Source: Terrimonas sp. (GTDB lineage: Bacteria > Bacteroidota > Bacteroidia > Chitinophagales > Chitinophagaceae). From it: a DNA stretch of 64,000 nt. The stretch lies in contig NZ_QCZJ01000001.1 in assembly GCF_003075435.1 (NCBI RefSeq), positions 186,001 through 250,000 of the forward strand, written 5' to 3'. How positions within the stretch are numbered: position 1 is the first letter of the stretch; each line of letters begins with the position of its first letter. This document shows positions 9,070 to 33,400 of this stretch, in pieces. A program made the position numbers and the translations under genes. The notes under the pieces were generated by a model that saw only the letters and a program-made list of their open reading frames with translations, did not search any database and was not told the DNA's origin.

Positions 9070-9075
9070 GCTATA

Positions 9076-9410
9076 ATTAGGGCTTGCTGTTTAACTCCAT
9101 TTTGGTGATATGCTGATAAAGATCATTGTATATTCATGCTTTGGTTATTAAATTGTTGTAAGGGTTTTGAATCAAATTTTTCGAAAACCATGCAGCTGTT
9201 TCGCCATAATTAAATTTTACGAACCTTTTTTACCTCCGCAGCCGGCGGGCTGCGTAACCGGAACGCCGCTGCTTTTTGTCTTTTGAAAAAATATGCTTCG
9301 CATTTTTTCAATTTCGCCTTCGGCGAAACCTGACAAAAAGAGGCGGCTAACCCGGTTACTGGTAAAAACTTAAAAAAATAAATGCCGGGAGTTAAACAGC
9401 AAGCCCTAAT
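9076..9410. mobile_element. MITE-like element, copy 1 (335 bp)
   Basis: A 335-bp non-coding element with perfect 23-bp terminal inverted repeats (ATTAGGGCTTGCTGTTTAAC plus TCC) flanked on both sides by TATA, consistent with TA target duplication as used by IS630/Tc1-mariner-type transposases. A second copy of exactly the same length lies at 33021-33355 with 10 base differences. The interior holds nested inverted repeats: a GCAGCC/GGCTGC hairpin, a long-range pairing of TTTTTGTC with GACAAAAA, GAAAAAAT/ATTTTTTC, and TTTCGCC/GGCGAAA. No transposase is encoded, so movement would need one supplied in trans. An antisense ORF across it is a by-product of the structure. Confidence 0.85.
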
Positions 9411-9558
9411 TATAATAATGAAAGCACACTGATTCCCGGTATTGCTGCTTGTTATGGTGTGCATTGTAATATAATAGCGTACAATAATATTACAGGCAAT
9501 AAAAAAAGATATAGGTATGAATTGTATTGAAGAACCATCAATTTAAAAAAACGCATTT

Positions 9559-32638: not shown

Positions 32639-33020
32639 GTCATTTTAAATTTATATCTGAAAAATGTTCTTTTATGATGGTTGATGTTGTGCACATATAG
32701 GGGTGGTATATCCACACCCTGGCGCAGGGTTGGTAGTATTGCCTTGTGCTTAGCCTGACCTGTTGACTTTGGTTCTGCATAGTCTCAACTCATAGCCTTT
32801 TGTGCGATAGCTGGGTTCTGCGATACATACTCATCGTCTCTCTTTGGTTAACTTATTTCTTTTATATATGGTAGCAGTTTTAATTACAACGCTTGATTCT
32901 CCGCTTAAAAATTGCATATTCCAGTTTTAACCATAACTATTGTTTGAGAAACCAACCCTTTTCATCCTCTGCAGTATGAACGTTAAGCCATTTATATTCA
33001 TCTACCCCCTGTAATGCATA
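32639..33020. other. Gene-free region with a possible coding remnant
   Basis: About 380 bp between the quinoprotein gene and the MITE copy 2. No complete gene was found. The last 80 bp before the element (32937-33017, minus strand) read as about 26 codons, GVDEYKWLNVHTAEDEKGWF then LKQ and TAG, which looks coding and may be the C-terminal end of a lost gene. The rest shows no signal I can name. Confidence 0.4.
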
Positions 33021-33355
33021 ATTAGGGCTTGCTGTTTAACTCCATTTTGGTGATATTCTGATAAAGATCATTGTATATTCATGCTTTGGTTATTAAATTG
33101 CTGCAAGGGTTTTGAATCAAATTTTTCAAAAACCATGCAGTTGTTTCGCCATAATTAAATTTTACGAACCTTTTTTGCCTCCACAGCCGGCGGGCTGCGT
33201 AACCGGAACGCCGCTGCTTTTTGTCTTTTGAAAAAATATGCTTCGCATTTTTTCAATTTCGCCTTCGGCGAAACCATACAAAAAGAGGCGGCTGACCCGG
33301 TTACTGGTAAAAACTTAAAAAAATAAATGCCGGGAGTTAAACAGCAAGCCCTAAT
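33021..33355. mobile_element. MITE-like element, copy 2 (335 bp)
   Basis: Same length as copy 1 at 9076-9410, with 10 substitutions and no indels, and the same perfect 23-bp terminal inverted repeats. TA lies directly on each side (33019-33020 and 33356-33357), consistent with TA target-site duplication; the wider flanks differ from those of copy 1. It has no ORF of its own. It lies between two converging quinoprotein genes, so it may also act as a structured 3' region for both. Confidence 0.85.
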
Positions 33356-33400
33356 TATCGTCTCTGTTTTCCAAAATCTACAATATGTAAAAATCTCAAA

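Follow-up and report, generated by a model that had tools for sequence, protein, structure and literature searches.

The 335-bp repeat present twice in the window (the whole stretch of 64,000 nucleotides of Terrimonas sp. DNA that was analyzed) is a MITE, and we consider it very probable (about 0.87) that an IS5-family transposase acting in trans moves this ~327-bp element via its 19-bp ends, duplicating a TANNTA site. The family assignment of the original prediction is corrected accordingly, from IS630 to IS5 type, and TANNTA is indicated as the target of a group of Chitinophagaceae IS5 elements. In kind, the element is an ordinary MITE; its more interesting part is a folded cargo, a module common to separate MITE families, and this sharing opens to testing the question of why conserved hairpins are carried by MITEs.

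Results

The window copies occupy positions 9076 to 9410 and 33021 to 33355, and both measure 335 bp with apparent 23-bp ends. Realignment bore out the first description of the pair (10 mismatched positions, zero indel, perfect 23-bp inverted ends), and BLAST found no match between the ~1-kb flanks of the two copies. The 25-mer TAATTAGGGCTTGCTGTTTAACTCC occurs at four places in the window at ≤3 mismatches, versus none in 100 shuffles of the window. As predicted, the element carries no transposase gene, the longest open frame within copy 1 being 64 codons. In single-stranded form, copy 1 has a far better fold than shuffled sequence (z of −10.5); a tRNA scan of the whole window found none.

The end conserved across copies is the 19-bp inverted repeat GGGCTTGCTGTTTAACTCC (GGG...CTCC), followed outward by a hexamer, mostly TANNTA, that is directly repeated on both sides; the element proper is therefore a short unit of 327 bp in each window copy, with a 19-bp terminal inverted repeat (TIR) (Table 1). 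Since the window hexamer, TAATTA, is a palindrome, the ends there look like 23-bp TIRs with TA flanks, four of the 23 bp being hexamer bases. The 23-bp TIR first described is thus perfect within the window, whereas the conserved TIR is 19 bp long and the rest is the palindromic hexamer, which varies as TANNTA.

Table 1. Coordinates of the element and its parts in the window, and of second-family elements within their own loci
Feature	Position	Strand	Remark
MITE copy 1, element proper (327 bp)	9080..9406	+	
Left 19-bp terminal inverted repeat, copy 1	9080..9098	+	
Right 19-bp terminal inverted repeat, copy 1	9388..9406	-	
Left target hexamer TAATTA, copy 1	9074..9079	.	
Right target hexamer TAATTA, copy 1	9407..9412	.	
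Conserved branched hairpin unit in copy 1	9254..9365	+	match to covariance model R1
MITE copy 2, element proper (327 bp)	33025..33351	+	
Left 19-bp terminal inverted repeat, copy 2	33025..33043	+	
Right 19-bp terminal inverted repeat, copy 2	33333..33351	-	
Left target hexamer TAATTA, copy 2	33019..33024	.	
Right target hexamer TAATTA, copy 2	33352..33357	.	
Conserved branched hairpin unit in copy 2	33199..33310	+	match to covariance model R1
Second-family element, L023	1443-1701		
Second-family element, L216	1323-1684		
Second-family element, L232	1421-1796		
Second-family element, L243	1318-1692		

In the 82 contigs of the host assembly, there are 18 complete copies (L001 to L018) at 17 distinct loci, 17 and not 18 because L007 and L008 are identical over 3,341 bp on two contigs (C36 and C31, in reverse orientation), reflecting either a recent duplication or an assembly duplicate. 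The pattern AGGGCTTGCTGTTTAACTCC at ≤3 mismatches occurs at 40 places in the host, versus 0 for the reversed control, and 36 of these pair into 18 elements of 202 to 401 bp. The four unpaired TIR ends all lie at contig edges, with sequence inward of them matching the MITE. A DNA search of the host with the element returned at least 53 matching pieces from the best 40 of 70 first-look candidates, the number scored, so that weaker copies may be missing from this count. Contigs C20, C18, C44, and C62 (L021, L022, L025, and L026) terminate within MITE-like sequence, and the assembly thus breaks on such repeats.

Measured from the GGG to the CCC end, 15 of the 18 copies span 325 to 328 bp; the off-size copies are L016 (200 bp, without most of the left half), L017 (252 bp), and L018 (399 bp). 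The 14 near-full distinct copies diverge by 0.6 to 3.3% from their majority, in an alignment that omits these three (outside 320 to 335 bp) and the duplicate L008. The 17 distinct complete loci are dispersed and have unrelated flanks: beyond the L007/L008 duplicate, BLAST of the flanks of L001 to L018 gave only two matches, one of 85 bp at 78% (L001/L012), located several hundred bases or more from the element, and one of 54 bp (L017/L018), located on the L018 side at the element's own left end. In the rejoined junctions, no frame of ≥100 codons runs across in 16 of the 17 loci, the exception being L017 (101 codons).

Side-to-side agreement of the hexamers was counted over the 17 loci, with the duplicate L008 dropped and L009 shifted by one base by hand. 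Altogether, 92 of 102 bases agree (shuffled mean, 77.4; reached by 0 of 20,000 shuffles), and for NN alone agreement is 28 of 34 (shuffled mean, 15.3; again 0 of 20,000). Positions 1 and 2 carry no side-to-side signal (20,000 of 20,000 shuffles) and positions 5 and 6 a weak one (1,148 of 20,000). The pairs are exact at 9 of the 17 loci, non-palindromic direct repeats among them being TAAATC on both sides of L012 and TACATA at L018; in the other 8 loci, one or two positions mismatch, possibly through simple decay. At L005, L011, and L017, the two hexamers differ in NN, CG standing opposite CT, as TACGTA/TACTTA at L005 and L017 and, swapped, as TACTTA/TACGTA at L011. Exchange between copies, or mutation, could possibly account for the swap; reciprocal exchange of L005 with L011 was entertained and then set aside, as L017 shares the pair of L005 and a point mutation could explain the difference.

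Empty sites were sought with the joined flanks of 6 of the 17 loci in 6 of 11 congeners, with up to 40 first-look candidates scored per genome. The comparison of empty with filled sites, proposed at the outset, yielded a clean empty site at one locus, L009, where the alignment of congener G004 runs through the junction (88%) and contains TAATTA only once, and none at the other five. At L014, G004 (78%) and G005 (70%) align through the region without the element, the hexamer having diverged there. The flanks of L015 align as separate pieces that lie only 75 (G004), 63 (G008), and 170 (G003) bases apart, too close together to accommodate the element, the junction itself being unaligned. For L004, L007, and L011, no junction-crossing match stood among the matches listed for the six congeners. 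The hexamer repeats and the single hexamer at the L009 empty site indicate a target site duplication of 6 or 2 bp, and the empty site fits both lengths alike. With many copies in unrelated flanks, hexamer duplications, and a congener empty site, the claim that the copies arose by insertion and not by segmental duplication is upheld.

Widening the search from the window to the whole genome and its relatives, as had been suggested, gave the 18 host copies and the same 19-bp ends at contig ends of G004. The element's DNA is matched in at least 8 of 97 relatives besides the host (7 candidates scored per genome), in G004 in the ends and in the other seven solely in inner parts. G004 has the exact 19-bp end at four contig ends and a one-base variant at six more, and all 10 of these ends follow TANNTA. 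The exact type leads into an ORF start (MLQGKRKKVVKNPARAP), and the two end types would be the two ends of one collapsed IS. This IS shares 19 of 19 end bases with the MITE, and its transposase is seen solely as a 17-residue start resembling that of G380. Searches of the host, G004, and G008 did not find its interior, sequence past the TIR occurring only at the four G004 contig ends; the related transposase N-terminus had no match in G004.

At ≤1 mismatch, a 20-base end is present in 3 of 394 family genomes (the host included, with G004 and G380). The exact 20-base end was found in 12 stretches of a species-genome scan that may leave out records near the host: 10 from MAG SJ21, a member of the Chitinophagaceae, 1 from SJ334, and 1 from Sphingobacteriales 41-5, in which it follows AAAGTA and not TANNTA and has no partner end in the 8-kb locus (≤4 mismatches). 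One G380 end opens into a reading frame that starts similarly and is broken by one stop; its two pieces match NF033578 (IS5 family) at 5.4e-19 (N-terminus) and 9.8e-9. A protein search found relatives of the first piece at E ≤1e-15 in 11 of the 394 family genomes; the host gave no match at this threshold, nor at E ≤0.001 among the 12 genus genomes, of which G001 and G003 matched. Compared with the first 16 bases of the 19-bp end, the ends near the G001 and G003 matches have 3 and 4 differences. A plasmid search with the G380-type N-terminus returned 49 records, none at ≥60% identity.

Ten stretches contain related elements, five with both ends (L176, L177, L179, L180, and L181), three with the right end only, and two with the left only. 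All five with both ends have identical TANNTA on the two sides; the pattern for these ends itself required TA..TA (≤2 mismatches), so the independent part of this result is the NN identity, 5 of 5. Three of the five (L176, L177, and L179) have interrupted reading frames. The four related transposases scanned (L178, L180, L181, and L182, of which only L180 and L181 belong to the five with both ends) all pass the NF033578 cut-off and contain DUF772 and DDE_Tnp_1_2 domains. The ends of these IS5-typed elements are similar, not identical, to the 19-bp end of the MITE. Ends like the 19-bp TIR also stand after hexamers other than TANNTA (GAATGA, AATTTA, and TACTGA), at L102:1495-1519 (G007), L104, and L112 (G008).

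A distinct MITE is present in congener G008. Its left end is GGGCTTGCTGTTTAAC, its right end is less perfect, its flanks are mostly TANNTA, and its ends are similar to those of the host MITE. Seven of its 12 tabulated hexamer pairs are exact, L189 counting among them once a one-base insertion is allowed for, and NN agrees in 9; the table drops L187, a second chance pairing in L186, and reverse-orientation repeats of loci. There is no overlap between its 36 listed places and the listed matches of the hairpin.

About 112 bp of the host element form a branched hairpin with covariation, and the inner part (approximately positions 150 to 300) matches sequence without the MITE ends in the host and in G008. 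In an 11-sequence alignment, the hairpin has 42 pairs, 10 with pairing-preserving changes on both sides and 11 broken in at least one sequence. With identical rows merged (10 sequences), the 10 double-change pairs compare with a shuffled mean of 3.0 and are reached in 0 of 500 shuffles; slid partners give 0 to 2, in a control that favors the structure, which was derived from the same sequences. "Further pair types" do not stand out from shuffles (145 of 500); of the four helices, one is invariant. A first alignment (A1, hairpin plus flanks) was superseded by a core alignment (A2), from which L027 was dropped and to which L080 was added; L064, L065, L072, L077, and L086 matched too and were omitted from both.

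The covariance model R1, for which the copy 2 hairpin is 1 of the 11 sequences used, was run against 58 genomes and matched in 6 of them: the host (27 matches), G008 (23, of which three duplicate a match on the opposite strand), G005 (6), G018 (2), and G001 and G002 (1 each). We read the host's 27 as 18 in the MITE, 2 at contig edges, 1 opposite-strand duplicate, and 6 elsewhere. Rfam gave no match for four loci (E ≤1) or for the window (gathering thresholds). Four G008 hairpin copies (L222, L235, L238, and L245) are embedded in mosaics of other shared repeats over hundreds of bases.

A second MITE family, with the ends CAATGTCGTTTCCTTAAG, contains the hairpin in the host (L023) and in G008 (L216, L232, and L243), L216 and L080 being the same G008 place. 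Treating L023 and L080 as one orthologous hairpin site was rejected, their surroundings being shared because both lie within this second family. In G005, model matches lie between CAATGTCGTTTCCTTAAG-type ends at L220, L225, and L237, where a stricter motif found no hairpin. L199 has CAATGTCGTTTCCTTAAG-type ends without the hairpin motif, and the same scan gave no CAATGTCGTTTCCTTAAG-type end pair at L019, L020, L227, or L241.

Discussion

We propose that an IS5-family DDE transposase, supplied in trans, would recognize the 19-bp ends of this non-autonomous MITE and insert it at TANNTA sites, the site being duplicated in the process. From the comparison of ends and flanks, an IS5-type transposase appears to be the mover of the element. 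Searches of the host assembly with the N-terminus and at the protein level found no autonomous partner, which fits the predicted mobilization in trans; the partner was presumably lost from the host genome or is missing from the assembly.

Mobilization by an IS630 or Tc1/mariner transposase duplicating TA, as the original prediction had it, would agree with the TA flanks of both window copies and with a hexamer that starts and stops with TA. However, the duplicated information sits in the variable NN between the TAs and not in a 2-bp TA, and the typed elements with the same or similar ends have TANNTA flanks and encode IS5-family, not IS630-type, transposases. The NN match largely refutes an IS630 origin, which we now find scarcely credible. 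How much of the hexamer is duplicated is a separate matter, as the same IS5 parent might duplicate only the 2 bp NN, the inner TA belonging to the element and the outer TA reflecting a target preference. The NN match is indeed the statistically clear part of the signal (28 of 34), positions 1 and 2 giving none and positions 5 and 6 only a weak one, but the rare TAAATC stands on both sides of L012, and we regard a 2-bp event as unlikely, while granting it some weight. The IS5 subgroups usually duplicate 2 to 4 or 8 to 9 bp. We tentatively infer a duplication of 6 bp rather than 2 bp inside the conserved TA-NN-TA.

The hairpin was probably acquired by the element through recombination or nested insertion. 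Its presence in places that lack these TIRs, in both the host and G008, could also suggest that it is the real dispersed repeat, the TIR element being a mere frame spread by recombination. Against this, the copies share ends and hexamer duplications, even L016, from which most of the left half is missing, and the G008 MITE with similar ends has no listed place that coincides with a listed hairpin match; we judge such an origin very improbable. Returning to the hairpin as cargo of a MITE, we tentatively suggest, at rather less than even odds, that it is an independent structured module conserved for its fold, which at least two different MITE families in the genus have acquired and which travels with them, perhaps through protecting the element or its surroundings (e.g., by ending or stabilizing transcripts).

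The NF033578 IS5-family elements resemble the host MITE in their similar ends, same TANNTA-type flanks, and transposases above the NCBIfam cut-off; in contrast, they are ~1.6 to 1.7 kb long with a transposase gene, whereas the MITE is gene-less. Immediately inward of its end, the G004 IS has sequence for which the host gave no match. In the open-licence literature, we found no account of a TANNTA target or of a 6-bp IS5-family duplication in Bacteroidetes and, in the portions available, PMC10969869 and PMC3196728 included, no case closer than BrickBuilt.

As a dispersed palindromic unit, the hairpin of the host MITE is reminiscent of REP sequences and REPINs (PMC2817692 and PMC3116915), but it is longer and branched. 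The closest parallel is BrickBuilt of P. gingivalis, described in the accessible sections of PMC4596501 as MITE-like, with IS5-like ends and a trapped 23-nt repeat, in a species whose ISPg elements duplicate 2 to 9 bp. Both systems belong to Bacteroidota and combine IS5-family-like TIRs and the lack of a transposase with a trapped repeat that spreads with the MITE. BrickBuilt differs by 23-nt tandem repeats and irregular flanking duplications, where the host MITE has a branched hairpin and consistent TANNTA. It is the precedent for a repeat-carrying, IS5-related MITE.
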